From Candidatus Yanofskybacteria bacterium RIFCSPLOWO2_01_FULL_49_17 (GTDB lineage: Bacteria > Patescibacteriota > Minisyncoccia > 2-02-FULL-40-12 > GWA2-44-9), in assembly GCA_001795695.1 (NCBI GenBank), contig MGKO01000006.1, positions 1 through 46,828 on the forward strand: a stretch of DNA of 46,828 nt, given 5' to 3'. The stretch's first letter is position 1; the number at the start of each line of letters is the position of its first letter. A model generated the notes under the pieces. The model was not told the origin of the DNA, searched no databases, and saw only the letters and a program-made list of their open reading frames with translations. A program made the position numbers and the translations under genes. Below, one piece after another: positions 7,050-21,031 of this stretch.

Positions 7050-7373
7050 TCAGCTAAATAGATAAAGAAATAAAGCCGCGCCAAAAAAATTGAGAATGAT
7101 ATCGAAAATGGTGTCGGCCAGGGTTGGAGTCACATCTTTTTGTCTAAGTTTACTTTTCACATACTTAGATAGCGTAGGAACCTTAGCAACTGTAAATTCC
7201 ATGAATTCCCATAATATGGTCACAATCCCAAGACCTAGAAATATAAAGCTTGGCGACTGGAAAAAATTAGAAAAGAACATCGCCACGAAGAAACCGCCCA
7301 AGAAATGTAGAGTTTGAAAAAACCAATAATGACGGTTACCAAATCCATGATACATACCCAAAGATACGTTCAA
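7050..7373 (-). CDS. Small VanZ/DUF2238-like membrane protein with uncertain start
   Basis: A predicted protein of 107 aa from a TTG codon. It has about three hydrophobic helices; LGLGIVTILWEFMEF and LADTIFDIILNFFGAALF give the WE...D...N pattern of VanZ/DUF2238-type proteins. The TTG lies inside what looks like the first membrane helix: in-frame codons upstream continue as KRAYTFIALTILFV up to a TAA, with no ATG or GTG. Either the TTG is used and helix 1 is short, or an ATA/ATT start is used, or the N-terminus has decayed. It sits 47 nt after the GT2 gene on the same strand. Function unknown. Confidence 0.5.
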   Translation of the reverse strand: MNVSLGMYHGFGNRHYWFFQTLHFLGGFFVAMFFSNFFQSPSFIFLGLGIVTILWEFMEFTVAKVPTLSKYVKSKLRQKDVTPTLADTIFDIILNFFGAALFLYLFS

Positions 7374-7420: not shown

Positions 7421-8149
7421 CTAGAAGGGTATTTTAATTCTGACGCCCTTTATATGAATGTCCCAAAAGAGTCTAGCCAGGGCATGTATGGCTTCGATTA
7501 CGCTTTTAATTTTAAACGAAGCGGTGGCTGAGGTCGGTTTAATACCCATGGGCACCTCTACATACCGAGCGCCTGATTTTATGAGTAAAACCAAAACTTG
7601 GACCATGTATGCAAAGCTTCCTGAACGCATCGGCACTTTTCTTATCAGCTTTGTCGGTACGACGCAGGTGCCATTATAGTAACGGAGGCGAAGGCCAAAC
7701 AACGTGTTACATAATATGACAAAGGCCCGAGAAACAAAACGTCTCTTAAAACTACGCGCTTTTTTATTTACTGTATACGGAACTACAAGATCTACCTGAC
7801 CGATATCCTTGAATATACCGACCATGGAATCTTCGATCGTCTCGTCGTCGCTGGGAATAAACATAACATTTTCTTTTTGGGCTAGGTCCACCCCCTGCCA
7901 GTACGTTAGGCCGAATGGCTTAAAGTGATGATTAATAATTGGCCGAATATGAGAATCTTTTTTTGCCAGGTCGAGTACAACTTCATCGGTTCGATCGTGA
8001 CTTCCGTCCCTGCTCGTATTTACCAACACAATTATCTCATAGTCGGAGAGTCCGGCCCTTTGCAACGCTCGAGTGGTGGTGGCGATAGCTTCGCCTACCA
8101 GATGCTCCATATTCAAAGCCGGCATAATGATAGAAAGTGAGCGGTTCAT
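7421..8149 (-). CDS. Glycosyltransferase family 2
   Basis: A 242-aa GT-A enzyme. It starts SLSIIMPALNMEHLVGEAI, has the VLVNTSRDGSHDRTDE nucleotide-binding strand, and FIPSDDETIEDS in the metal-site position. There are no C-terminal membrane helices beyond a weakly hydrophobic stretch, unlike DPM/GtrB enzymes. It would transfer a sugar in the cytoplasm. No SD is visible before the ATG, unlike the GC-rich gene just upstream. It is followed by the small VanZ-like gene. Confidence 0.82.
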   Translation of the reverse strand: MNRSLSIIMPALNMEHLVGEAIATTTRALQRAGLSDYEIIVLVNTSRDGSHDRTDEVVLDLAKKDSHIRPIINHHFKPFGLTYWQGVDLAQKENVMFIPSDDETIEDSMVGIFKDIGQVDLVVPYTVNKKARSFKRRFVSRAFVILCNTLFGLRLRYYNGTCVVPTKLIRKVPMRSGSFAYMVQVLVLLIKSGARYVEVPMGIKPTSATASFKIKSVIEAIHALARLFWDIHIKGVRIKIPF

Positions 8150-8192
8150 GTTAGCTTACTATACAAAAAAAATGTCTGTTTGCAAAGGAAGG

Positions 8193-8218
8193 CCCCGGTT
8201 GCTCGAAAGCAACCGGGG
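8193..8218 (-). terminator. Stem-loop after the nucleotidyltransferase/kinase gene
   Basis: CCCCGGTTGC and GCAACCGGGG form a perfect 10-bp stem with a 6-nt loop, 21 nt past the stop codon at 8240. On the minus strand the T-run (TTTTTTTT) lies about 18 nt further on, so termination is likely but not textbook. Confidence 0.55.
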
Positions 8219-8239
8219 TTGTGTCTTCTCGGTTGGAGA

Positions 8240-9778
8240 TTAGTCGAGAAGGTATTTTAGTCGCTGAAAGAAGAGCTCGGAACTGATGGGGGTTTTGTTG
8301 CCGATGACCTCAACGGCCAGAGAGCCGGCGACGTTACCTACAAATGCGGTCAGATCCGACGAAAGACCGCGGGCGGCACAGAGAGAAGAGAACGCAAGGA
8401 ATGCGTCTCCGGCACCGACCGTATCAACCACACTGGTAGTGAACGAGGGAATGATGCCGGCCTGGCCGTTGTCCAAGAACAATGCGCCACGGCGGCCAAG
8501 TGTCAGCACCACCGAAGCGGCCCCCGTGGAAGAACGGACGGAACGAGCCACGTCTTTGACGTCGGACTCGTCATCATGAACGGCAAGCCGAGCTTCGCGT
8601 TCATCGACGCAGAGGTAGTCAGCACCTTGGTACTTGGTAGCGTAGTTGAAGCCAAGGTTACCCGCATTGGTCTGCGCGTTGACGGCTAAGAATGCGGCAC
8701 CCGAACGAATCGTCTCAATCAATCGCTTTGAGAGTAGCTTGTGGCCGTAATCGGCCACAAGCACCAAGTCATAATCGGCCAGACACCCCTTGAGGTAAGC
8801 ATCGATGCTGTCCTCCAACTCGGTTGGTATTGGTTTTCGATCAAACTCGTACAGCTCGAACAGTCGTGTCAAGTAGGCCGGATCAATGTACCGAGTTTTC
8901 GTGATTGTTGGACGATTCGGACAGATGAAAAACTCTGGCCGCACGTTCGGTTGAAGTTTTCCTCGAATGAACTCCTCTCGAGAACACGTTTCGCCCAGAT
9001 AGGTCACGACATCAACAGTCTCACACAAGCCCGCGATGTGGTTGGCACAGGCAAGAACGCCTCCGGCAAACATCTCTCGTTCCCGCACTTCCGCGGCAAT
9101 AACGGGTGACTTGGATGGTGTACCCGGCAAGGGCGCCGCATAGCAGTACTCGTCAATGATCGTTTCGCCCACCACAAGAACCTTGAGATTCCTAAGACTC
9201 TGAAGATGTCCGACCACTGACGCGTAGTCATACTTCTTCTTGAAGTCATCGAGAAATGCCATTACCTCTGGCGGGTTGGGTGGAAAGTATCTATTCAGAA
9301 GACTCGTCGAATGGACCAGGGGCACGATCTGCAGAAACTCCATCTTGCCCCCAACCTCATCGAGAGCTTCCTTGTCCCGGTTGAGACCGCTGGTTGGATC
9401 ATCGAGCAGCGGCATGACATCTTCGCCTCGAGCGTAGATGTCAGGCCGTAATTGCCGAATAATTTTGTATGGACCAAGCTCACGGCAGGGAACCACAAAA
9501 CTCACGTAGCCCAGAGAGGCCACCGAACGCTGACGAATGCTTTCAGCGAACGCTGGACGATTTGGACCTTTGTGGACGAATGTGTCATCGAGAACGGAAA
9601 CGATAAGGACATCTCCGTAATCGGCAGCCTGATCGAGGTAGTAAATATGCCCCATGTGCATGAGATCAAACACACCGTGGGCAAGTACTACTCGTTTCCC
9701 CTCTGCCTTGAGTTGCTGAACGATTGGCACAAGTTCTTCGAGTGTTTTGATTTTTTTGCCCACTCGGTGCGTATGCAT
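8240..9778 (-). CDS. Bifunctional nucleotidyltransferase / PfkB sugar kinase (HldE-like, domain order swapped)
   Basis: A 512-aa protein. Residues 1 to about 165 form a cytidylyltransferase-fold domain with HGVFDLMHMGH (34-44). Residues about 195-512 form a ribokinase/PfkB domain with GETIIDEYCYA at its start, FAGGVLACANHI, and the catalytic DTVGAGDAFLAF near 460. E. coli HldE has the kinase first; here the order is reversed. The pair would phosphorylate a sugar (or sugar-7-phosphate) at C1 and then activate it with a nucleotide. No GmhA isomerase or GmhB phosphatase is in the window, so ADP-heptose cannot be assumed. Start ATG has an SD (AGAAGGGG, 5 nt before). It is GC-rich like the radical SAM and TPP genes beside it. 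Confidence 0.85.
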   Translation of the reverse strand: MHTHRVGKKIKTLEELVPIVQQLKAEGKRVVLAHGVFDLMHMGHIYYLDQAADYGDVLIVSVLDDTFVHKGPNRPAFAESIRQRSVASLGYVSFVVPCRELGPYKIIRQLRPDIYARGEDVMPLLDDPTSGLNRDKEALDEVGGKMEFLQIVPLVHSTSLLNRYFPPNPPEVMAFLDDFKKKYDYASVVGHLQSLRNLKVLVVGETIIDEYCYAAPLPGTPSKSPVIAAEVREREMFAGGVLACANHIAGLCETVDVVTYLGETCSREEFIRGKLQPNVRPEFFICPNRPTITKTRYIDPAYLTRLFELYEFDRKPIPTELEDSIDAYLKGCLADYDLVLVADYGHKLLSKRLIETIRSGAAFLAVNAQTNAGNLGFNYATKYQGADYLCVDEREARLAVHDDESDVKDVARSVRSSTGAASVVLTLGRRGALFLDNGQAGIIPSFTTSVVDTVGAGDAFLAFSSLCAARGLSSDLTAFVGNVAGSLAVEVIGNKTPISSELFFQRLKYLLD

Positions 9779-9871
9779 AGCTACCCCTTCTTAGAGCTGA
9801 AAATTGTCAATGAAACTCGCCTCATACGATAGCACACTAAGTATAAATATGGAAGGGAAGTTATAAAAAAT

Positions 9872-9907
9872 AAATAGGGGGCGCCTGCCTTGGAAGACAG
9901 ACGCCCC
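9872..9907 (-). terminator. Rho-independent terminator of the B12-radical SAM gene
   Basis: On the minus strand GGGGCGTCTGTC pairs with GGCAGGCGCCCC (12 bp, two G-U pairs, 6-nt loop) and is followed by CTATTTATTTTTTAT. It begins 9 nt after the stop codon. Confidence 0.75.
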
Positions 9908-9915
9908 TGTGTGAA

Positions 9916-11808
9916 CTAGGAAACCGGACCGCCGAGAGCGAGCTTTCGGTCGGGCCGTTTCACGAGTCTTCTCCGTTCTTTCCGCTGTTTCCAGAGATCA
10001 AGCTGGATCATCTCGAGATAGAAACGAATCTTTTCTCGAAATGAGTACCTGATCGGATAGATGCGAGTGCGATGCATGTACCCCTTTGAAACAGTGTAGA
10101 GCCAGAGGAACAGAGCCTGGAGGCGCTTGTTTCTGGTTGAACTCATGCCCATTAAAACGCTAGTCATGGGCCGAGCCAATCTTTGTATAAACCGATTCCG
10201 TGACCCCCAAAAGAGAGTCAGGAACGTACCAATGAGCGTCAGGTTCTGAATGACCTCTTTCTCCTCTTCCGAAAAGCATGAGAGAGGAGATTTAGTCTGA
10301 TAACTAGCATGAAGCTTGGCAAAATCGCCGTCGAAATCTCCGCGCGCTTCGCACCAGTCAGTCGCCTTGGTCCCCGGATAGGGAAACAGAGTCAGAAACT
10401 CCGCGAACCCGGGCTTGCACTTGAGAGTAAACATCACCGACTCGACGTTAGTCGCGATGTTGTCATGGCGCAAACCCATGTTGCCAAGGAACTGGACCGT
10501 CGATCGACGCCGCAGAGCCGTGCTCTTCTCGTTTGGAAACCAAGTCTGATTGAGTTTCAAGGCCTCGTCAAAATCCATCCGCGTCCCGTTGACCGTCTTC
10601 AGAATACCCAGATCCCTTTTCACCAACGCGAGTTTCTCATCGAAATGAGGATCGTCCTCGCGCGGAAGAATGGGAGATGGAATCCCGACAATGGTGTTTG
10701 GGAACGTATAGACACCCTCCGCGTAGGCAATAGCAAACGCGGCTTTGACTTGTTCCTGGCTCATATCGCGAACGATGACATGATCATGGATGAACTGGTT
10801 GCCTGACTCAATAGACATAGTCAGGGAGGCCAATCCAGCCTTTTTCCAGTCCCGGATGACATTCACGCCCTTCTCGTGCAACTTCATGACGTTGTCACAG
10901 CGAGTCAGGATGTGAAATGGCAACCCGACCCGGACCGGGTACTTGGAGCAGAACTCTTCGTGCCAGGCCACCTCGTCCGGACTGGGAAAGGGCGGGAACA
11001 CGTCATCGTAGAACTTGAAATACCTCGTATCCCAGTTCTTCATGACATACTTCAGCTCCTCCAAGAACCGATCAACTCCGTAGTACTGCCTGACCCGGCC
11101 AAGACCTTTGTAGAGGTCGTTGAATTGCGGCTCAAAGCAGTATGCACAACGAAATGGACAGCCCCGCGAAGCCATGTGAGTGCGCTTGAAACGTTTCCGA
11201 AACGCAGTTGAGTCGTAGACGAGACCGCGATCCAGAAATGGGAGAGTATCCAGGTCAACTTTTCTGGAACGAACAATCCCCCGCTTCATAGTGAACGCGT
11301 CAAAGTACTTTTCATCCTTGGACCCATCTGAGATCAGTCCGAGTTGGACTTTTCGGGAATCGGCCGGAATCTCAAGGACTTTGTAAACGTTCTCTTTGGT
11401 CACTACGTTCTGAATCTGGTCCGGCATCCGACCGGCTTCAAGTTCAGCTAGTATCTCGAGCCACGCGTCATCGCCTTCTCCAACGCAGATCAAATCCATC
11501 GCTTCTGGATGGCGCATCATCTCGCCGGGGAAGTAGGTGAAGTGAGGCCCGCCGAAGGCAGTGATGATGGAACGCTTGATGTTTTTGGCTTCAGCCGCGG
11601 CATTGATGTAGGTCCGCTGGTTGCCGGTGATGCAGCTGAACGCCATCACATCCGGCCTGAAGCTTGAAACGGCGTCCTTTACACTCCGATCTTGCAGAAC
11701 CAACATCTGGGTTTCATGTCCGCGTTGCCGGGCCAGAGCCGACAAAAGCATCTGGTTCATCGGCTCGGTCATGTCCCCGTCGTCACGCATGACAAACAGG
11801 ATTTTCAT
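9916..11808 (-). CDS. B12-binding-domain radical SAM protein
   Basis: A 630-aa protein. Residues 1 to about 140 look like a cobalamin-binding Rossmann domain (MKILFVMRDDGDMTEPMNQMLLSALARQRGHE ... ITAFGGPHFTYFPGE ... CVGEGDDAWLEIL), but the DxHxxG cobalt-ligand motif is not seen. The radical SAM core has SRGCPFRCAYCFEP, the CxxxCxxC cluster site at about 217-224. A long C-terminal part (about 500-630) is basic and not assigned. Such enzymes methylate unactivated carbons or do other radical chemistry. The start has an SD (GGAGA, 7 nt before ATG). It is divergent from the TPP-enzyme gene and shares a 157-nt control region with it. Substrate unknown; context suggests a sugar or lipid. Confidence 0.85.
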   Translation of the reverse strand: MKILFVMRDDGDMTEPMNQMLLSALARQRGHETQMLVLQDRSVKDAVSSFRPDVMAFSCITGNQRTYINAAAEAKNIKRSIITAFGGPHFTYFPGEMMRHPEAMDLICVGEGDDAWLEILAELEAGRMPDQIQNVVTKENVYKVLEIPADSRKVQLGLISDGSKDEKYFDAFTMKRGIVRSRKVDLDTLPFLDRGLVYDSTAFRKRFKRTHMASRGCPFRCAYCFEPQFNDLYKGLGRVRQYYGVDRFLEELKYVMKNWDTRYFKFYDDVFPPFPSPDEVAWHEEFCSKYPVRVGLPFHILTRCDNVMKLHEKGVNVIRDWKKAGLASLTMSIESGNQFIHDHVIVRDMSQEQVKAAFAIAYAEGVYTFPNTIVGIPSPILPREDDPHFDEKLALVKRDLGILKTVNGTRMDFDEALKLNQTWFPNEKSTALRRRSTVQFLGNMGLRHDNIATNVESVMFTLKCKPGFAEFLTLFPYPGTKATDWCEARGDFDGDFAKLHASYQTKSPLSCFSEEEKEVIQNLTLIGTFLTLFWGSRNRFIQRLARPMTSVLMGMSSTRNKRLQALFLWLYTVSKGYMHRTRIYPIRYSFREKIRFYLEMIQLDLWKQRKERRRLVKRPDRKLALGGPVS

Positions 11809-11965
11809 TACAGTTCTCCAATCTAAGTGGCTATCTAATTGCCAAAGGTCTGTTTACATAAAATCATACAAAAAAGATAAAGTCAACCACAATTATTGAT
11901 TTTATTTGAAATATATATTATCATTTTGGAACGTTTTGAACCTTTCCAACTGAAAGAAGGACGGC
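11809..11965. promoter_or_regulatory. Divergent intergenic control region (radical SAM / TPP enzyme)
   Basis: A 157-nt AT-rich gap between two divergent GC-rich genes must hold both promoters. On the plus strand TTGATT (near 11896) and the TATTATCAT stretch (near 11918) are the best sigma70-like pieces, though spacing is poor. On the minus strand TTGTGG and TATGAT are 18 nt apart. An SD, AAGGA, lies at 11957-11961 for the plus gene. Confidence 0.35.
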
Positions 11966-13837
11966 ATGCAAACAGTGGCAGAGTATATCTTGGATTTCAT
12001 CGCTTCGCTTGGCGTCCGGCACGTTTTCGGACTCATCGGCGGCACTTGTGGAATTCTCATTGACCGCCTCGGCGAGTATCAGAAACAGGGCAAGCTTGCC
12101 TTCGTGCCGATGCTCCACGAGCAAGCGGCATCTATGGCCGTTGAGGGCTACGCCCGCCAGACCGGATTTGGCGTCTGCCTGGTCTCCAGCGGACCGGCCG
12201 TGACTAACATCATGACCGGAGTCCAGGGCACGTTTCACGAGTCAATTCCCTGCCTCTACATCGCCGGCCAGCAGGACGTCGCGAATATTTACTGGAAGGC
12301 TGATGAGGATTTCCATAAGGAGATCCGCCAAATCGGCACTCAGGAGGGGCCCCACGTCAAAATGATGGAGCCGATAACTAAATACTCCGCTCTGGTCAAA
12401 GATGCGGCTGACATCCGATATTACCTGGAAAAAGCCGCCTATCTGGCCCGCCGCGGACGGCCCGGGCCGGTCTTCCTTGACATCCCGAAAGATCTTCAGG
12501 GTTTCAAGGTTGATCCGGAACAACTTCGGCCGTTTGACCCATCGGAGGTGCTGGATGAAGAGGAGGGCATCCTGACCGGACCCGGCCTGGACCAAGAAGT
12601 GATGAAGCTCATTGAGCTCATCAATCATTCAGAACGTCCGGTTGTTCTGATGGGAGCCGGCGTCCGTCTCTCAAACACGACCGACCAGGCCCGTACCTTC
12701 GCCGAACGGCTGGGCGGGCCGGTGGTCTGTAGTTGGGGCGGTATTGACGCTTTTCCTCATGCTCATGAGGCTTTCGTTGGCAGCATTGGCGACTACGCGA
12801 CCCGGGCCGGCAACTTCACCGTCCAGAACTGCGACCTGCTCATCACTCTCGGCTCTCGGCTGGACCCACGCCAGACGACCAAGGAGTTCCACTGGTTCGC
12901 CCGCGGGGCCAAGATCGTGATGGTGGACAAAACCAGAAAAGAGCTGGAAAAAGAGGGGGTCAAGATTCACCTGCCTGTACGGGCTGACTTGAGACAGTTC
13001 TTCGCCTCATTCAGCCGGAACGAATCGGCCATTCACCAGCCAGATATCTCGGAATGGTACCAGTGGGTGCAGAAGCAGTACAAGGCCAAGTACCCGGTGG
13101 TTACCTCCAGTGATTACGAACAGGATTCGCCCGTCAATCCGAGAGCATTCCTAAAACGTCTATCAGAACTGGTCCCGGCCGAAGTCCCGATGGTCGCTGA
13201 CTGCGGTGTCAACCAAATCCTAGCCATGACCTGCTGGCAGGTCAAAGAAGGCCAACGGGCCTTTGAGAACGGCGGTAGCGGAGCCCTAGGGTTTTCCGTG
13301 CCGGCCGCTTTCGGAATGTCGTACGCCATGGGTAAGAAGCCGGTGGTGTGCGTCATGGGTGATGGCGGGTTCCAGTTCAATATTCAGGAGCTGCAAACCA
13401 TCAAGAACCATGGCATCCCGCTGAAGATTTTTGTCCTGAATAACAAAGCTTACGCTTTGTTGGTCAATACCCAGGACAAGAGCTACGGCGGACGCCACGT
13501 GGCTTCAGTTAATGAACCGGATGGTTATTCGGCGCCTGACTTCGTTAAAGTGGCCGAGGCCTTTGGAATCAAGGCCCTGAGAATTTCGGGGCTGAGCCAG
13601 ACAGACGAAGCGGTCAAAGAGGTGCTGGGCCATTCCGGTCCGGTCGTCATTGAGGTTGCCATTCCTGAAGGATCTTTCCCCTTCGTGTTCGTCAACTACG
13701 GTGACGCCCTGGAAGATTCCCGGACGAAAGCAAAGCCGGCGGTCTATCTCCCGGTTTCCGAGATTCGGGAGAACATGCGGTTTGTGCCTCCGGTCGCCAA
13801 GACCTTGGAGCGCGAGCCGGTTCCGGTGGAGAAATAA
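11966..13837 (+). CDS. Thiamine-diphosphate-dependent enzyme, acetolactate-synthase-like
   Basis: A 623-aa protein with the three-domain layout of the acetohydroxyacid synthase family. The PYR domain has the catalytic glutamate in LHEQAASMAVEGYAR (E52); the middle domain runs from about 205; the PP domain carries GDGGFQFNIQELQTIKNHG (about 465) with LNNKAYALL about 26 residues later, the GDG-N26-NN metal/TPP motif. Family members decarboxylate pyruvate or other 2-oxo acids and transfer the carbanion. In glycan loci, relatives such as YerE attach a two-carbon branch to a sugar; here that is a hypothesis. No small regulatory subunit (ilvN) or other branched-chain amino acid gene is nearby. It has a strong SD and its own terminator, and is GC-rich. 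Confidence 0.85.
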   Translation: MQTVAEYILDFIASLGVRHVFGLIGGTCGILIDRLGEYQKQGKLAFVPMLHEQAASMAVEGYARQTGFGVCLVSSGPAVTNIMTGVQGTFHESIPCLYIAGQQDVANIYWKADEDFHKEIRQIGTQEGPHVKMMEPITKYSALVKDAADIRYYLEKAAYLARRGRPGPVFLDIPKDLQGFKVDPEQLRPFDPSEVLDEEEGILTGPGLDQEVMKLIELINHSERPVVLMGAGVRLSNTTDQARTFAERLGGPVVCSWGGIDAFPHAHEAFVGSIGDYATRAGNFTVQNCDLLITLGSRLDPRQTTKEFHWFARGAKIVMVDKTRKELEKEGVKIHLPVRADLRQFFASFSRNESAIHQPDISEWYQWVQKQYKAKYPVVTSSDYEQDSPVNPRAFLKRLSELVPAEVPMVADCGVNQILAMTCWQVKEGQRAFENGGSGALGFSVPAAFGMSYAMGKKPVVCVMGDGGFQFNIQELQTIKNHGIPLKIFVLNNKAYALLVNTQDKSYGGRHVASVNEPDGYSAPDFVKVAEAFGIKALRISGLSQTDEAVKEVLGHSGPVVIEVAIPEGSFPFVFVNYGDALEDSRTKAKPAVYLPVSEIRENMRFVPPVAKTLEREPVPVEK

Positions 13838-13853
13838 CAAACCGGAACAATCA

Positions 13854-13892
13854 TAGCCCTTTGGACCGTTAAGTCCAAAGGGCTACTCTTTT
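13854..13892 (+). terminator. Rho-independent terminator of the TPP-enzyme gene
   Basis: TAGCCCTTTGGAC and GTCCAAAGGGCTA form a perfect 13-bp stem with a CGTTAA loop, followed by CTCTTTT, 17 nt past the stop. It partly overlaps the 3' end of the convergent DHS-like gene. Confidence 0.85.
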
Positions 13893-14884
13893 AATAATTC
13901 AGTTATCCTTCTGTAGAGAACCGGAATTGTATCAGAAAAATCACCCCTGACATAATAACTTTTACCGCCATCGCGTATCGTACGCACAAGAATAGTTTTT
14001 AGAGGTCTGAAATAGTATCTGGGGTCTTTTAATCTTTTCAATATCTTATAATTCACGACGTCCTTTTCACTCCGCCAGTTGCCCAAATCTATGAGATCAA
14101 AAACCCCGGTTGTAAATGAGTTTATTTTTTTCTTTTTTTGTATAGATATATTTCTGGCCATTGAGAGCGCTTTTAAATACACCTCCGGACCCATGGCCTG
14201 GGCACCCATAGATATAAAAACGCCGCCTTGAAGCTTCGAAATAGAGTCGGCAAATATAAGAAAATCGTCTCCAGACGTTTTGCCGATCGCGCCAAAATCG
14301 GCCGAGGGATGCTGGTCAGTGATATCGTATCCAATGCCTTTGTGAACAGTTATCGGAATACCCAAACGATATGCCGCCGCAAAAATACTTACGTCTTTAT
14401 AAGGAAATTTAGACGCGAAACCCTTGTGAATTGCGCGGCCGATAGATTCACCTAGTCCTAGCCCATGTCTTGAACCATATAGAGCGGCCTTATTTATGAA
14501 TACGCTTGCCTCTTCCCAATTTCCAAATTTTCCATCTTTAATATAACGCTCCACATCCTCCATTGTCGCTCCAATAAGAGCAAGCTCCAAATCATGGATT
14601 GGTACCGCGCCATTAGTGGCAACGTGGCTTATAATGCCTCGCTCCATGAGATTAATAATGATACGAGAATTCCCGCGCCGGAGCGGATGAGCGCCCATGG
14701 CTAAAATTACTTTTTTATTTTTTTTATAAGCTTTTACGATAGCTTGAGCTAAAAATTCAATATTTGTGTCAGCTAAACGCGGACCCGAGGAATTTAGGGT
14801 TTTAACATCAGAAACAGTCATTTTATTTTTTCGTTCTGCCAGCGGTCTAAACTTTATCTTTTTTCGGTCTAATTTTTTAAACAT
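13883..14884 (-). CDS. Deoxyhypusine-synthase-like protein (GSU2085-type family)
   Basis: A 333-aa protein from the ATG at 14884. The longer ORF in the track (to 15061) reads back through a terminator and into the upstream gene in another frame, so I reject it. Recognisable stretches are LAMGAHPLRRGNSRIIINLMERG, HVATNGAVPIHDLELALIG, GLGESIGRAI, AAYRLGIPITVHKGIGYDITDQHPSADF and AMGPEVYLKALSMARN. They follow the deoxyhypusine-synthase fold, and match, from memory, the bacterial family of unknown function named after Geobacter GSU2085. The eukaryotic active-site lysine context is not evident, and no eIF5A-like substrate is nearby, so hypusination is unlikely. It is AT-rich and lacks an SD. Context suggests a role in modified-sugar synthesis. 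Confidence 0.6.
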   Translation of the reverse strand: MFKKLDRKKIKFRPLAERKNKMTVSDVKTLNSSGPRLADTNIEFLAQAIVKAYKKNKKVILAMGAHPLRRGNSRIIINLMERGIISHVATNGAVPIHDLELALIGATMEDVERYIKDGKFGNWEEASVFINKAALYGSRHGLGLGESIGRAIHKGFASKFPYKDVSIFAAAYRLGIPITVHKGIGYDITDQHPSADFGAIGKTSGDDFLIFADSISKLQGGVFISMGAQAMGPEVYLKALSMARNISIQKKKKINSFTTGVFDLIDLGNWRSEKDVVNYKILKRLKDPRYYFRPLKTILVRTIRDGGKSYYVRGDFSDTIPVLYRRITELLKE

Positions 14885-14935
14885 ATCTAAAAATATTTGA
14901 CCCTTTATACTATCACCTAATAACAAAAAGTCAAC

Positions 14936-14965
14936 AAAAAAATCGGGCATCGCGTACGATGCCCG
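14936..14965 (-). terminator. Rho-independent terminator of the SPASM-type radical SAM gene
   Basis: CGGGCATCG-CGTA-CGATGCCCG is a perfect 9-bp stem with a 4-nt loop; on the minus strand it is followed by ATTTTTTT. It lies 13 nt past the stop codon and separates the GC-rich gene from the DHS-like gene. Confidence 0.85.
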
Positions 14966-14978
14966 ACGTGACTGCCAA

Positions 14979-16187
14979 CTAGATAAAGTTTGCCCTTTTC
15001 GGAGGCGAGACTGTCTCCAGCTGGACCATTTCCTTCTCGAACTGCTCATCCGACAAGCCACGAAGTCCAGTCATGAACTTATTGTCTTTGTCGGGATGAC
15101 ATGTTTTACGGCACTGGCCGATGTCCAGATGGTTCAGAACAAAATCCAGATGTTGACGACGAGTTTCTCCAAACCAGATCTCACGAACCGTCTGGGTGTT
15201 CAGGTTGCCAAGCGCGAACCGCGGATCGGTCCAATAGGCCGAACAGCTCAACCAGAGACCATCTGACTGGATGTACGACCAAAGCGAGGGCGTCACCAGG
15301 CATGTGGAATATGGTCTCTCTGATTCGTACTCCTCAAAGCGCGTGAAGCGGAAAACCACTTCAAACAAATCAGATGAGTAGCGCCGGATGAGATCTTCCC
15401 CTGTGGCGTTAATCTCATCCATGAGCTGGCGATAACTCATGGTACCGTACCGACCCGCCGTCGCTTGGCTCAATGGATGCTGGGAATACGGCTTGATGGA
15501 GACGTAATCAGCACCACTGGCATGAGCCCGCTGGACCAACTGCTCAATCTCCTGCCAATTGGCCGGAATGACCTTGCCATTCTTGGATGCTTCCTGAACC
15601 AGCACCGTCATGTTCACGCCCAATTCACAATCTCGAGCCCCAAGCGTCTGCTTCAAGTTCGCCGCTCGTTCAATGTTGCGCCACGCCATATTCCAGTGCT
15701 GCTCGGAACAGTCGTGTATACGGGCGTAGCTTTTGGCGGTGCCTGCATTGACACTGAACTGGATGTACCCGTTAACCAGAGGAATGATACGACGGGCAGT
15801 CTGTTCTGGCAGAGCAGTACCGTTGGTAAGCATACCGATGTCGATACCGGCATCGCGAGTTGCTTTAAATATCCGGCCAAGTTCTTTGTGAAGAGTCGGC
15901 TCACCTTCACCGGCAAACTGAATACTCTTCACTCCGAGCCCATCCGGATCTTCTTCCCGTAGTTCCCGCAGTTCACCGATTCGACGACACATGATGTCGG
16001 TATCCAAGAAGCGGTCGGGATATCCGAGTATGTCCGGCGCGCAGAATGAACAGCGATGGTTGCACCGGCCACTTGGTGAAATCTCCAAGTAGACAGGCAT
16101 CAGATTGAAGGGGTCCTCCCTCCACCGACGCAACCATTGCGGATGGTACTGGACCTTCGAACCTTCAATCCACCTCATCACGTTCAT
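14979..16187 (-). CDS. Radical SAM protein with SPASM-like C-terminal cysteines
   Basis: A 402-aa enzyme from the ATG at 16187. This start has a strong SD (GGAGGG, 4-5 nt before), whereas the ORF-track TTG at 16205 has none. The core cluster motif is CNHRCSFC (C42, C46, C49), followed by FAGEGEPTLHKEL, the GGEP-like SAM motif, and LTNGTALPEQ. The C-terminal part has cysteines in SCSAYW and GQCRKTC, after FALGNLNTQTVREIWFG, which is the SPASM/Twitch pattern for auxiliary iron-sulfur clusters. The family modifies peptides, sugars or carbon skeletons by radical chemistry. No precursor peptide is visible nearby. It is GC-rich, has its own terminator and stands alone. Confidence 0.85.
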   Translation of the reverse strand: MNVMRWIEGSKVQYHPQWLRRWREDPFNLMPVYLEISPSGRCNHRCSFCAPDILGYPDRFLDTDIMCRRIGELRELREEDPDGLGVKSIQFAGEGEPTLHKELGRIFKATRDAGIDIGMLTNGTALPEQTARRIIPLVNGYIQFSVNAGTAKSYARIHDCSEQHWNMAWRNIERAANLKQTLGARDCELGVNMTVLVQEASKNGKVIPANWQEIEQLVQRAHASGADYVSIKPYSQHPLSQATAGRYGTMSYRQLMDEINATGEDLIRRYSSDLFEVVFRFTRFEEYESERPYSTCLVTPSLWSYIQSDGLWLSCSAYWTDPRFALGNLNTQTVREIWFGETRRQHLDFVLNHLDIGQCRKTCHPDKDNKFMTGLRGLSDEQFEKEMVQLETVSPPKRANFI

Positions 16188-16252: not shown

Positions 16253-18016
16253 TCAAGGGATAGTTAAATAGTATATAGCTATGCTACCGTCATTGTATAC
16301 TTCTTTGCTATTTTTTAATGTTTCTATGTGGAAATCCTGATCGCGTGACAAATCTTTTATGGCATAGGTAACATGATACTTTTTTAGAAAATCATAGATA
16401 TGCGGCCTGACAATTCTATTATTTTCAATAATCAGATCTTGAATTTTACGGTCCCGAATTGCTTTAAGACGAACCAGAGCTTCAGGATCACAGCTAGCCA
16501 ATCTCTGTAATTTGAATAATTTACACAACTTCAGTTTGAAATTAAGGTTTGACGTCTGATTGATATCGCTGCTGCCCAATGCCGCGTCATATTCATTCAT
16601 AATTGATTTTGAATCAACATTCTTAAAATATCTGGAGGCCAAATATCGCTCCCGTATCTCCTGCCCGGATACGAAATACTGGTTGGCCAGATCCTGCCCT
16701 GATACGAGGACATAATGGCGAGAATAAATCAGGGTATAACTGCTAATATCGGGATTGGCCCAGATTACTGTTGGCTTTGATTCTTTTTTGTCAAGCCAGG
16801 CGATCGGGGCGGCATATCTTTGAATGTATATCGCTTCGGGCCCGTCAATCTTCAACTCCGGCAGAACTGAACGTTTATATTGCGCCAATACCGGTACAAA
16901 AGTAAGCGTCAACAATCCGACAACCATGATCATTTTACCGGATCGCTTGGGAATCAAATTGGCATGATTCCAAACAAAATAAAGAAGCATGTAAGATGAA
17001 ATTGCGAGCCAGAGGTACATTTCCCGGGTAAGATGCTCGCCGATGACCGCGTCTCGGCCCGTCAGAATCGGACTTAGCAATAAGACAAGTATGGCCAGGC
17101 CCGTGGGAATAACTAACCGCCATGTCCTTATGAAATCAAGGTTATTTTTTATACCAGGGACTAGCTTCATGACACCCGACCAAACAATTAAATTCAGTAT
17201 GATCCAACGGCCAATATAAAACGACTGCGGCGAAGGTAAATGAGTTTTAATGGATCCGGCATGGCTGATAAAATCTGCAAAAAGTGGATGTGAAATTTCG
17301 CGGTAAATATATATAAACGCGGGTAATGCCAATATGAAAGAACCGAGACCAATGATAAGCAGACCCTTCAGCCGAGACCAATCTTTCTGTGTCAAAAATA
17401 GAAGTAATATAAAAACCATCGTCCCGCCGGATACTTGCCAGGTATAGGGATAAATATAAAATGTCGCGGCAAAACTAAAGGCCAAAAAGATAGCGGCTGG
17501 CCGTTCAGGTTTTTTTAACCAGCGTGTAAGCCCGATCAGAAATAACAAAAAAAATGGAAATACGGCCGAAAGGACCGCGGGCCGAACCATCATCCAGTAG
17601 ACCTCCAAATATATCGGTCCGACAAGCCACCATGCCCATAACCGCCGCGTGCCTAATTGTTCCAGGAGTATTTTAAGAAGATATACAAAAATTAAATTCC
17701 AGATAATCAAACCGAGGATAAGTGCTTGTGTGAATGAGAGACCTAATTTTAATGGGATGGACGCAAGGAACAGAGCCGCTGTCGGGGATGCGTTGATATC
17801 ATTGGCATGTTCAATAAAAAAAGGCGTATTGCCGAAGGGAATATGGGCCGTGCCTTTGACTATCTGGATAAAATAAAATAGGCCGTCGGTCACATAGGAC
17901 GGCATCATTCCCTGCCAAGCCGGGCCAATGGCAATCCTGGCATGCAAAATCGGCATTATTGAGATTAATCCTACGACCAAAACCAGTATTGCGAGCTTAG
18001 TAAGTTTATTTTTCAT
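16253..18016 (-). CDS. Multi-pass membrane protein, GT-C-like, paralogue of 22818-24545
   Basis: A 587-aa protein with about ten hydrophobic helices over residues 5 to 400 and a soluble C-terminal domain from about 410. The N-terminal loop has an acidic YVTDGLFYFIQIVKG after helix 1, where GT-C enzymes carry their catalytic Asp. The soluble part has VIWANPDISSYTLIYSRHYVLVSGQ and a closing IKDLSRDQDF...GSIAIYYL. The same WANPD motif and layout occur in the 575-aa protein at 22818-24545, so the two are paralogues. I infer a polyprenyl-phosphate-sugar-using glycosyltransferase, but no family name is certain. Its start overlaps the upstream methyltransferase gene by 11 nt. Confidence 0.6.
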   Translation of the reverse strand: MKNKLTKLAILVLVVGLISIMPILHARIAIGPAWQGMMPSYVTDGLFYFIQIVKGTAHIPFGNTPFFIEHANDINASPTAALFLASIPLKLGLSFTQALILGLIIWNLIFVYLLKILLEQLGTRRLWAWWLVGPIYLEVYWMMVRPAVLSAVFPFFLLFLIGLTRWLKKPERPAAIFLAFSFAATFYIYPYTWQVSGGTMVFILLLFLTQKDWSRLKGLLIIGLGSFILALPAFIYIYREISHPLFADFISHAGSIKTHLPSPQSFYIGRWIILNLIVWSGVMKLVPGIKNNLDFIRTWRLVIPTGLAILVLLLSPILTGRDAVIGEHLTREMYLWLAISSYMLLYFVWNHANLIPKRSGKMIMVVGLLTLTFVPVLAQYKRSVLPELKIDGPEAIYIQRYAAPIAWLDKKESKPTVIWANPDISSYTLIYSRHYVLVSGQDLANQYFVSGQEIRERYLASRYFKNVDSKSIMNEYDAALGSSDINQTSNLNFKLKLCKLFKLQRLASCDPEALVRLKAIRDRKIQDLIIENNRIVRPHIYDFLKKYHVTYAIKDLSRDQDFHIETLKNSKEVYNDGSIAIYYLTIP

Positions 18017-18778: not shown

Positions 18779-19765
18779 ATGAAGAAAAAAATCCCGTCAA
18801 TTTTGCTTGTAGGAGTCGGCCGATGGGGGAAGAACCATCTCCGAGTCCTACTTAAATTACAGGCCGAGGGGCTTTGTCGCTTGATCGGCGTACAGGCCAG
18901 GAATTCCCAGAGGCTTGAATCTATCGCCAAGGAATTCGGCGTGCGGACATTCAGCGACGATCAGGGCTGGGAAGAAGCTGGTGCTATTGATATCACAGTG
19001 CCGACTCATGACCACTTCATCTTGGCGAAAAAGGCATTGTTGGCAGGAAAAGATGTTCTGATTGAGAAACCGATGACCGCCAGTCTCACAGAAGCGGAAG
19101 AACTTGAAAGAATTCATGCAAATTCTTCCCAAATTCTCATGGCGGGCCATATCTTTTGCTACAATCCCGCCCTGGATTATGTAAAGAAGATTATTGTAAG
19201 CGGTAAGATTGGGAAAATACGATTTTTGAGAGGTCGTTTCATGGGATTTCGAGATAAAGATATAGATGTCGGGATTTTGGCCACGACGGCGATGCATTTT
19301 ATTTACTTGTCAAATTCCCTCATGGGCAAACCCCCCAAGGCAGTGTGGGCAAAAGTAGATTACTTATTAGACCCGGTCTTGGATGATTATTGCCTTGTGC
19401 GACTTGATTACGGTCCAGAATTCAGTCTTATTGAGGCGGACTTCTTCACTCCAGGAAAATTTAGAACATTTGATATTCTCGGCACCCATGGATCAATCAT
19501 CTTCGACGTGATTAACCAAAAAGTAGAATTGCGCGATGAAAAACATGTTCCTTTCGGAGACCATTTCAAGACCCATGCCGGGAGCGTGTCAAACCCGGAC
19601 ATTGAATATCAAGAACCTCTCTATCTGGAGCTTCGTCACTTCTTGGAGTGCATCCAGGAGCGGAAAGAACCGCTCACGGGAATCAAGGATGGCGTAGCTA
19701 TCTTACGAATCATAGAGGCGGCGTATGAGTCGTCCCGGCTAGACAAGACAATATTGTTAAGTTGA
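18779..19765 (+). CDS. Gfo/Idh/MocA-family NAD(P)-dependent oxidoreductase
   Basis: A 328-aa protein with an N-terminal Rossmann fold, ILLVGVGRWGKNHLRVL (8-24), and the family-defining EKPMT (96-100) at the end of the nucleotide domain. The C-terminal domain (about 125-320) is the alpha/beta dimerisation and substrate-binding half; LATTAMHFIYL sits where family members have their active-site His. Such enzymes oxidise or reduce sugars and nucleotide sugars, for example making 3-keto sugars. It is a lone plus-strand gene between two minus-strand methyltransferases; its stop abuts the stop of the convergent C-methyltransferase gene with no gap. No SD is visible; TAGAAT about 18 nt before the ATG could serve a near-leaderless promoter. 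Confidence 0.88.
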   Translation: MKKKIPSILLVGVGRWGKNHLRVLLKLQAEGLCRLIGVQARNSQRLESIAKEFGVRTFSDDQGWEEAGAIDITVPTHDHFILAKKALLAGKDVLIEKPMTASLTEAEELERIHANSSQILMAGHIFCYNPALDYVKKIIVSGKIGKIRFLRGRFMGFRDKDIDVGILATTAMHFIYLSNSLMGKPPKAVWAKVDYLLDPVLDDYCLVRLDYGPEFSLIEADFFTPGKFRTFDILGTHGSIIFDVINQKVELRDEKHVPFGDHFKTHAGSVSNPDIEYQEPLYLELRHFLECIQERKEPLTGIKDGVAILRIIEAAYESSRLDKTILLS

Positions 19766-21031
19766 TTATTTTTTGATTATTTTGAATTTAGGAAGAGGGA
19801 GCACGAATTTTGATTTCAGGCCCTTGGCTCGCCAGTTTTTCATAATGAAGTCGGCGTAGTGCCAAGCCAAGATGACTAGGTAATCCGGCTGTTCTTTCAG
19901 AATGATGTCGTTTGCGACAACAGGGATATGCGTGCCGGGCATGAACTTGCCAACTTTTTCTGATTCGGGTAGTTGAGCAATGTAGGGCATCAAGGTTTTA
20001 TCAATACCATAATAATTTACCAATACTGCCCCACGACCCGGACAAGAATCGGCCACAAACTTAAGACCCTTCTCTTTGGCTTGATGGGCTAATTGAATAA
20101 ATTTATTCCGATTTTCATGGACTCGTTGCCGAAATTTTGTCCATGTTGCAGGTTTAAACAATCCTTTTGTCTCTTCTAATTTTAATAATTTGGTAATTTC
20201 CGGACTAATAGGATATTTGCCTTTTCTTCCTATATACGCTCTAATATTTCCGCCATATCGCGAGGCTCGCTGGACATCAAAAACTTCCATACCGTAATAT
20301 GGAAATAATGTCACTAGAGATTTCAAACTATAGGTACGAATATGTTCGTGGTAAACCCCTTCAAACTGATTACTCTCTAAAATATCCAGAAGATATTGGC
20401 TCTCGGTAATGAAAATTCCGTCCTTATCTAAAAGCTGAACCAGTCCTCGCATTACTTCTCCAAGCGGGGCCATATGAGCAAAGACATTGGTCATAGTGAC
20501 CATTTTCGCATGGCCATATTCTTTGACGATGTTCTTCGCAACTTTCTCGGTAAAGAAGCTCTGGATCGTTTCAATCTTATTTTCTTTACGAGCAAGCTTG
20601 GCCATGTCGGTCGGTTCGACACCCAGTACTTTCATCTTGTTACGTTTGAAACCGGTCAGTAAGGTACCGTCATTTGATCCAATATCGACGCATAGAGATT
20701 TTGGAGAAAGATTAAATTTCTTTACAACACTATCGGCAAACAATACCTGATAGTCGCGTAAAGGCGCGGAAATACCGCTTCGATAGGGATAGTCTTTGGG
20801 ATAGATAGTTGAACCCTCTACGACATGATCCAATTGTGCTAACCCGGATTCAGGGCAAATCATCAGCCGAAGCGGATAATAAACCTCCGGCTCATTTATG
20901 GTCTTCTTGGTCAATAATGCGTCGCAAGGCGGTTGGTGACCGAGATCAATGGCCTCAAAAAGATTTTTTGAGCCCGTGATTTGACAATGATCTAGTTTTC
21001 CAGGAATAGCGTCGTGGTTGGGTTTAATCAT
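19766..21031 (-). CDS. Sugar C-methyltransferase (TylCIII/NovU-like)
   Basis: A 421-aa protein with the three-part architecture of nucleotide-sugar C-methyltransferases. An N-terminal zinc-ribbon-like segment (Methyltransf_13) reads DHCQITGSKNLFEAIDLGHQPPCDALL ... LMICPESG; the first cysteine pair is degenerate (CQIT rather than CxxC). The SAM domain has SLCVDIGSNDGTLLTGFK near 110 and a YHEHIRTYSLKSL stretch, typical for this family. The C-terminal Methyltransf_14 domain includes GRGAVLVNYYGID and PDYLVILAWHY. These enzymes add a methyl group to C3 or C5 of a keto-sugar nucleotide. The neighbouring Gfo/Idh/MocA oxidoreductase fits reduction or oxidation of the keto group. Confidence 0.85.
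   Translation of the reverse strand: MIKPNHDAIPGKLDHCQITGSKNLFEAIDLGHQPPCDALLTKKTINEPEVYYPLRLMICPESGLAQLDHVVEGSTIYPKDYPYRSGISAPLRDYQVLFADSVVKKFNLSPKSLCVDIGSNDGTLLTGFKRNKMKVLGVEPTDMAKLARKENKIETIQSFFTEKVAKNIVKEYGHAKMVTMTNVFAHMAPLGEVMRGLVQLLDKDGIFITESQYLLDILESNQFEGVYHEHIRTYSLKSLVTLFPYYGMEVFDVQRASRYGGNIRAYIGRKGKYPISPEITKLLKLEETKGLFKPATWTKFRQRVHENRNKFIQLAHQAKEKGLKFVADSCPGRGAVLVNYYGIDKTLMPYIAQLPESEKVGKFMPGTHIPVVANDIILKEQPDYLVILAWHYADFIMKNWRAKGLKSKFVLPLPKFKIIKK

Follow-up and report, generated by a model that had tools for sequence, protein, structure and literature searches.

The window described here is a stretch of 46,828 nucleotides from Candidatus Yanofskybacteria bacterium RIFCSPLOWO2_01_FULL_49_17 (contig MGKO01000006.1), whose genome is 614 kb in size and 99.4% complete. 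Within a glycan locus, it carries a group of enzyme genes that recurs in a small number of related genomes and that may direct the synthesis and transfer of an unusual branched sugar. A preliminary description, made from the nucleotide sequence and its translations, had singled out five of these genes between positions 8240 and 16187. All five open reading frames (ORFs) are uninterrupted and encode the expected catalytic motifs. Together with a neighbouring glycosyltransferase gene, they constitute the following set, which includes enzymes dependent on S-adenosylmethionine (SAM) and on thiamine pyrophosphate (TPP, also thiamine diphosphate, ThDP).

7421..8149, minus strand: small GT2 glycosyltransferase of 242 amino acids (Pfam Glycos_transf_2), the sixth member of the recurrent set.
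8240..9778, minus strand: fusion of a nucleotidyltransferase (NT) with a PfkB kinase (CTP_transf_like at 33-123, PfkB at 199-497; motifs HMGH and DTVGAGD).
9916..11808, minus strand: radical SAM protein with a B12-binding domain (Pfam B12-binding and Radical_SAM over cut-off; CPFRCAYC, of the form CxxxCxxC).
11966..13837, plus strand: predicted YerE-type TPP-dependent carboligase of the acetolactate-synthase superfamily (TPP_enzyme_N/M/C; HEQA with the catalytic Glu, ThDP motif GDGG...NN).
13883..14884, minus strand: GSU2086-family protein with a deoxyhypusine-synthase/AgrE-like fold (NF052581).
14979..16187, minus strand: radical SAM/SPASM protein (Pfam Radical_SAM and SPASM over cut-off; CNHRCSFC, of the form CxxxCxxC, and five further Cys, giving eight invariant Cys).

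The GSU2086 gene starts at the ATG at 14884; a GTG at 15061 falls within the SPASM gene. The composition of positions 8240-16187 is a mosaic. GC content is 53-57% in the NT/PfkB, B12 radical SAM, TPP and SPASM genes (0.58-0.68 at third codon positions, GC3), 40% in the GSU2086 gene (GC3 0.37) and 33-48% in most flanking genes.

The distribution of these families was surveyed in 384 genomes of the window's class, among which the window's own genome is designated G000. GSU2086 (NF052581) exceeded its cut-off in eight genomes, hereafter the carriers: G000, G006, G023, G025, G029, G032, G140 and G213. When the SPASM protein and the B12 radical SAM protein of the window were used as queries, the top eight of the 384 genomes were in both cases exactly these carriers; the association with GSU2086 at E<=1e-20 gave Fisher p values of 3e-13 and 6e-13, respectively. 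The carriers belong to four families and seven genera. Four of the eight fall in the window's own family, most members of which lack all three genes. The association of these families exceeds chance by far, and the co-occurrence anticipated in the preliminary description is borne out for GSU2086, SPASM and B12 radical SAM proteins.

The remaining members of the set follow a similar pattern. An all-against-all comparison of the retrieved carrier loci found GT2 in eight of eight carriers and NT/PfkB in seven of eight. Homologues of the window's GT2 protein (34-51% identity) are present, often in multiple copies, in the retrieved regions of all seven other carriers, and those of its NT/PfkB protein in six of the seven. 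Six of the eight carriers have the TPP gene, as do 19 of the 376 other genomes of the class (p 1e-6). Gene order and contig vary among the carriers. For example, G140 has a compact cluster in the order GSU2086, SPASM, PfkB, SIS, NT, E1-alpha, E1-beta and B12 radical SAM, the last of which runs off the contig end; the remainder of this gene lies on another contig, where GT2 adjoins it. PfkB and NT, fused in the window, are separate genes in this genome. In G213, the GSU2086 gene is found with a SIS isomerase gene amid housekeeping genes, on a different contig from the rest of the set, and the linkage is therefore more than simple neighbourhood. There is good support for the genes forming a single functional set. 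In several carriers, a second B12-type radical SAM gene and paired short proteins resembling pentapeptide repeats also recur close to the set (L009:11960-12885, L171:16421-17364, L168:3500-4392).

The limits of the module differ from those first proposed. A C-methyltransferase gene (19766-21031) and a Gfo/Idh/MocA gene (18779-19765), which had been proposed as possible finishers of the sugar, are not matched by any gene in the regions retrieved from the seven other carriers; they are therefore left out and probably lie outside the module. Two further genes, neither with a Pfam match, are possible accessory members, though we are unsure of both.

7050..7373, minus strand: small membrane-type protein, found in four of eight carriers (homologues 60-66% identical in G023, G029 and G032).
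16253..18016, minus strand: membrane protein of 587 amino acids, found in three of eight carriers (homologues in G006, 49%, and G023, 39%, both adjoining GSU2086).

The TPP enzyme is assigned to the YerE type by phylogeny, by its best solved relative and by the gene company of its nearest relatives. The preliminary description had allowed that it might prove an ordinary acetolactate synthase by phylogeny. Instead, the tree placed it in a 20-member clade with TPP enzymes of RfbH clusters, with a support of 100/100 and apart from IlvB/IlvI. The tree included acetolactate synthases of E. coli, Bacillus, Rhizobium, Monoglobus and Adhaeribacter; searches of plasmids with the TPP proteins returned mostly distant genes annotated as acetolactate synthase, which served only as outgroups. 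The best match in the PDB was 8rph, JanthE, at 307 bits, compared to 268 bits for the best acetolactate synthase. JanthE has been described as YerE-like (PMC12247030). The model for the acetolactate synthase large subunit, TIGR00118, was the top NCBIfam match, yet its 376 bits fell below the cut-off of 538.35. In addition, later steps of branched-chain amino acid synthesis are missing: dihydroxyacid dehydratase (DHAD) was detected in none of the eight carriers and ketol-acid reductoisomerase (KARI) only as one weak partial match (G023), whereas each was present in 14 of 14 control genomes.

Neighbourhoods were read for 14 TPP loci from 13 of the 19 non-carrier genomes. In these loci, the TPP gene lies amid glycan and nucleotide-sugar genes, mostly adjoining genes resembling NAD-dependent epimerases/dehydratases and aminotransferases, and in five genomes RfbH is found over cut-off close to it. 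One of these loci has a yersiniose-type row (G287, L220:4623-11411) of glucose-1-phosphate cytidylyltransferase, CDP-glucose 4,6-dehydratase, RfbH, TPP enzyme and a reductase-like gene. The YerE-type character put forward earlier was thus upheld, while the addition of a two-carbon branch is a reading of that character.

Several genomes also have a PanB-like gene in the vicinity of the YerE-type TPP gene (L169:14623-15357, L171:13568-14491, L213:6753-7676), recognized by PF02548 in G006 and G032 and, in G017, by a phmmer match to the protein from G032. The PanB reaction is the addition of a hydroxymethyl group to a 2-oxo acid. Given this activity, and since 4-hydroxy-2-oxo acids serve as donors for ErwE, a YerE-like enzyme (PMC12247030), the PanB-like enzyme might make the branch donor.

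The two carriers that lack a YerE-type gene, G140 and G213, have genes of another TPP type in its place. E1-alpha and E1-beta genes (Pfam E1_dh, Transket_pyr/Transketolase_C) are found in the cluster or adjoining the SPASM gene. Likewise, four genomes whose SPASM relatives are more distant (G121, G126, G279, G047) have E1-alpha/beta genes close by; SIS genes are also near these relatives in G279 and G047, as is an NT-PfkB fusion in G047. E1-type genes are present in 15 of 60 genomes surveyed and carrier G023 holds both TPP types, so their presence alone is weak evidence and it is their position that counts. The antibiotic clusters of the known alphaKADH2 cases are not known to have HldE-like or SPASM genes. 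A 2025 review counts only three ThDP superfamilies known to take ketones as acceptors, and two of these are the YerE-like decarboxylases and alphaKADH2 (PMC12247030). In known or proposed reactions, the former branch surface-glycan sugars and the latter add C2 branches to antibiotic keto-sugars (PMC12247030). The alternation of two TPP types across the carriers offers the strongest indication that a sugar-branching carboligation may take place at the TPP step. The putative likeness to alphaKADH2-branched sugars (aldgamycin, paulomycin, kibdelomycin) lies in the genes, with E1-alpha/E1-beta in G140 and G213 occupying the place of the YerE-type gene elsewhere. In one of the genomes with distant SPASM relatives, an ORF resembling phosphoenolpyruvate (PEP) mutase (G279, L205:691-2322) lies beside E1-alpha/beta, two SPASM relatives and SIS; by eye, it has an extra C-terminal domain, possibly a nucleotidyltransferase, which suggests a possible phosphonate link.

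In the yersiniose pathway, the acceptor ketone is produced by RfbG and RfbH. The carriers appear to lack the means to provide RfbH-made CDP-4-keto-3,6-dideoxyhexose as the acceptor: RfbH was over cut-off in none of the eight, and the window's genome had no match at E<=1e-40. The two radical SAM proteins and GSU2086 are candidate sources of the ketone. In profile searches, the nearest solved relative of the SPASM protein was MoaA, followed weakly by BlsE, BtrN and DesII (25-40 bits), and those of the B12 radical SAM protein were AprD4 and TokK (52-54 bits). BtrN is an alcohol-oxidizing enzyme, AprD4 and DesII each eliminate a group so that a carbonyl remains, and TokK is a methyltransferase. 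While BtrN, DesII, BlsE, AprD4 and TokK are among the nearest solved relatives, the matches are far too weak to transfer a reaction. Both proteins fall far below every characterized-family cut-off in NCBIfam; for example, the B12 protein scores 46.8 bits against the KedN5-type cobalamin radical SAM C-methyltransferase subfamily, whose cut-off is 700. An AlphaFold2 model of this protein, built from seven sequences, had a mean predicted local distance difference test score (pLDDT) of 55 and was not interpreted. Among the papers listed for Patescibacteria, radical SAM enzymes and nucleotide sugars together, none that we saw was relevant.

The NT-PfkB fusion has the domains of HldE in reversed order. 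It scores far below the cut-offs of the HldE models, both for the whole protein (NF008454, 150.9 bits against 521) and for the single domains (110.3 against 345 and 90.5 against 181.5). Six of the eight carriers have a GmhA-type SIS_2 isomerase. The absence of GmhA noted earlier for the window extends to the whole genome, as a genome-wide search found no SIS_2/GmhA homologue in G000 or in G025. Compared with the ADP-heptose pathway (GmhA, HldE, GmhB, HldD), the set shares kinase and nucleotidyltransferase domains homologous to HldE and, in most carriers, SIS, and GSU2086 itself lies beside hldE and gmhA in Geobacter. The set differs in its domain order, its low HldE scores, the lack of SIS_2 in the window's genome and the addition of TPP and radical SAM genes.

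The GSU2086 protein matches NF052581, the “GSU2086 family”, at 354.4 bits (cut-off 250). It had been called deoxyhypusine-synthase-like, a label that holds for its fold and fails for its family. An AlphaFold2 model with a pLDDT of 90 gave AgrE/ArgZ, the LOR/SDH protein 3c2q and deoxyhypusine synthase (DHS) as top Foldseek matches (12-16% identity, probability 1.00). The protein has no Pfam match and PF01916 has none in the whole genome, which rules out a true deoxyhypusine synthase. GSU2086 thus has its fold in common with DHS and the AgrE-ArgZ ornithine cyclodeaminase domain, but differs from them in sequence, in the lack of PF01916 and in gene company. Known members of this fold bind NAD, and a redox or epimerizing role would therefore fit GSU2086.

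A wider scan gave more than 550 matches to GSU2086, of which the 80 best, a sample dominated by Poribacteria, were examined. In loci outside both the class and Poribacteria with a readable ORF, a PfkB gene lies within 300 bp of GSU2086 in 11 of 20 and a HAD-type gene in seven of 20; SIS and ROK genes also occur in the vicinity. Within 10 kb of GSU2086, comparable SPASM, B12-type and TPP genes are absent from all 69 loci outside the candidate phyla radiation (CPR; L020, which is G023, being left out). That the NT/kinase and the DHS-like protein neighbour each other elsewhere, as the preliminary description had wished to see checked, was confirmed at L010 and L011 and in Geobacter, with PfkB alone in the 11 of 20 informative loci just counted. 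In Geobacter, GSU2085 (hldE), GSU2086 and GSU2087 (gmhA) are consecutive and all three affect growth on electrodes (PMC5585712). That mutant fitness list was all that a search for GSU2086 in PMC text turned up, and no publication on DHS and heptose was found there. GSU2086 is hence repeatedly associated with HldE-like sugar-phosphate chemistry, and the window's class adds TPP and radical SAM enzymes to this chemistry. In Anaerolineae and Armatimonadota, rows of HAD-type, GSU2086 and HldE-like PfkB genes, sometimes with SIS and ROK, were observed with no nucleotidyltransferase detected nearby (L067:9029-12131, L085:8388-12962, L093:9092-12022). These rows may represent an undescribed sugar-phosphate module.

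On balance, we lean slightly towards the view that the genes at 7421-16187 form the core of a single pathway by which a nucleotide-activated branched sugar for a cell-surface glycan is made and transferred. The HldE-like PfkB and NT domains would phosphorylate and activate a sugar-phosphate by heptose-like chemistry. GSU2086, with its NAD fold, and the two radical SAM enzymes would make or edit a keto or deoxy-keto sugar, to whose ketone the YerE-type TPP enzyme would add a short acyl group derived from a 2-oxo acid, the simplest case being C2 from pyruvate. GT2 would transfer the finished product. We infer the substrate, the order of steps and the product. The parts of this reading vary in strength: it is likely that the set makes an activated sugar, whereas branching by the TPP enzyme, the best single reading of its role, has about an even chance. 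The unusual-sugar pathway of the preliminary description is thereby retained in its recurrent set and its YerE-type enzyme and amended in its DHS family name and downstream genes, its chemistry being conjectural as before.

The closest known counterpart is the RfbF-RfbG-RfbH-YerE pathway to yersiniose A. The two have in common a glycan locus, a TPP clade shared with RfbH-adjacent enzymes of the class and JanthE as the best solved relative. They differ in that RfbH over cut-off is absent from every carrier and the set instead has NT/PfkB, two radical SAM enzymes and GSU2086. A more specific version of the pathway is possible, though we advance it tentatively: the radical SAM enzymes and GSU2086 would replace RfbG and RfbH on a heptose-like scaffold, which a YerE- or E1-type TPP enzyme would then branch to give a branched higher sugar new to glycans.

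Several points weigh against a single branched-sugar pathway. The substrate and product of the set are so far putative, a phosphatase step is unaccounted for, and the entry step in the window's genome is unexplained because SIS_2 is missing there. In G025, no NT/PfkB gene was detected close to the set, and no genome-wide search was made for it. The tree included no characterized YerE sequence and used RfbH-cluster enzymes as stand-ins. As the eight carriers are related rather than independent, the Fisher p values are weaker than they appear. Independent occurrence of the families, named at the outset as grounds for abandoning the proposal, was found for two of them singly: the TPP clade also turns up where GSU2086 and the radical SAM proteins are absent, and GSU2086 is widely distributed with no TPP or radical SAM gene beside it. 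It was not found for the SPASM and B12 proteins in this class. Since the TPP clade and GSU2086 each occur without the rest, the set could be two pathways at one locus.

This last account is the main rival. It holds that a heptose-like pathway (NT/PfkB, GSU2086 and sometimes SIS) shares the glycan locus with a branched- or edited-sugar pathway (TPP, SPASM, B12 and GT2). The company of GSU2086 outside the class, where it accompanies PfkB, HAD-type phosphatase-like, SIS and ROK genes and has no SPASM, B12 or TPP genes within 10 kb, is as this rival predicts, and so is the hldE-GSU2086-gmhA run of Geobacter. Furthermore, SPASM relatives in G047 are accompanied by E1, SIS and NT/PfkB in a genome where GSU2086 does not exceed its cut-off. 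Strong SPASM and B12 orthologues in the class nevertheless occur only with GSU2086, and in the compact cluster of G140 the genes of the two supposed pathways are intermingled. We regard two pathways as unlikely, albeit deserving of serious consideration.

It is improbable that the product is not a sugar at all, such as a lipid, a phosphonate or a peptide-derived cofactor, with the genes merely lying amid glycan genes. The weak relationship of the radical SAM proteins to characterized enzymes and the PEP mutase-like fusion beside SPASM, E1 and SIS genes in G279 would be consistent with such a product. However, the partners (HldE-like NT/PfkB, SIS and GT2) belong to sugar metabolism, relatives of the TPP enzyme sit in nucleotide-sugar clusters, and AprD4, BtrN, DesII and BlsE, near solved relatives of the radical SAM proteins, are generally known to act on sugars or nucleotide sugars. 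Chance or shared ancestry, by which glycan loci of one lineage are inherited or exchanged as blocks with no joint function, is more improbable still: half of the carriers fall in one family and the mosaic GC (40% in GSU2086, 53-57% in the other four core enzymes) is as expected of an exchanged locus, but the carriers extend over four families and seven genera, most of their relatives lack every member, and order and contig differ. Least credible is that the TPP enzyme serves branched-chain amino acid or acetoin synthesis as an ordinary acetolactate synthase unrelated to the other genes, since TIGR00118 as the top NCBIfam match (376 bits) is outweighed by its missed cut-off, the separate clade at 100/100 support, the lack of DHAD and of a convincing KARI, and JanthE as the best solved match.

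The surface sugars of Patescibacteria are little known, and the cells are thought to live attached to other cells via their surface. If the genes do form one branched-sugar pathway, two radical enzymes stand where known branched-sugar pathways use ordinary ones, in a rare set held by few genomes. The set also gives a biochemical context to the widespread GSU2086 family, which had more than 550 matches in one scan, for which we found no function assigned, and one member of which Geobacter requires to grow on electrodes. It further suggests that two unrelated types of TPP enzyme can fill the same slot of one pathway. As a small group of enzymes that can be reconstituted, it could yield a novel branched sugar as well as new reactions of radical SAM enzymes.

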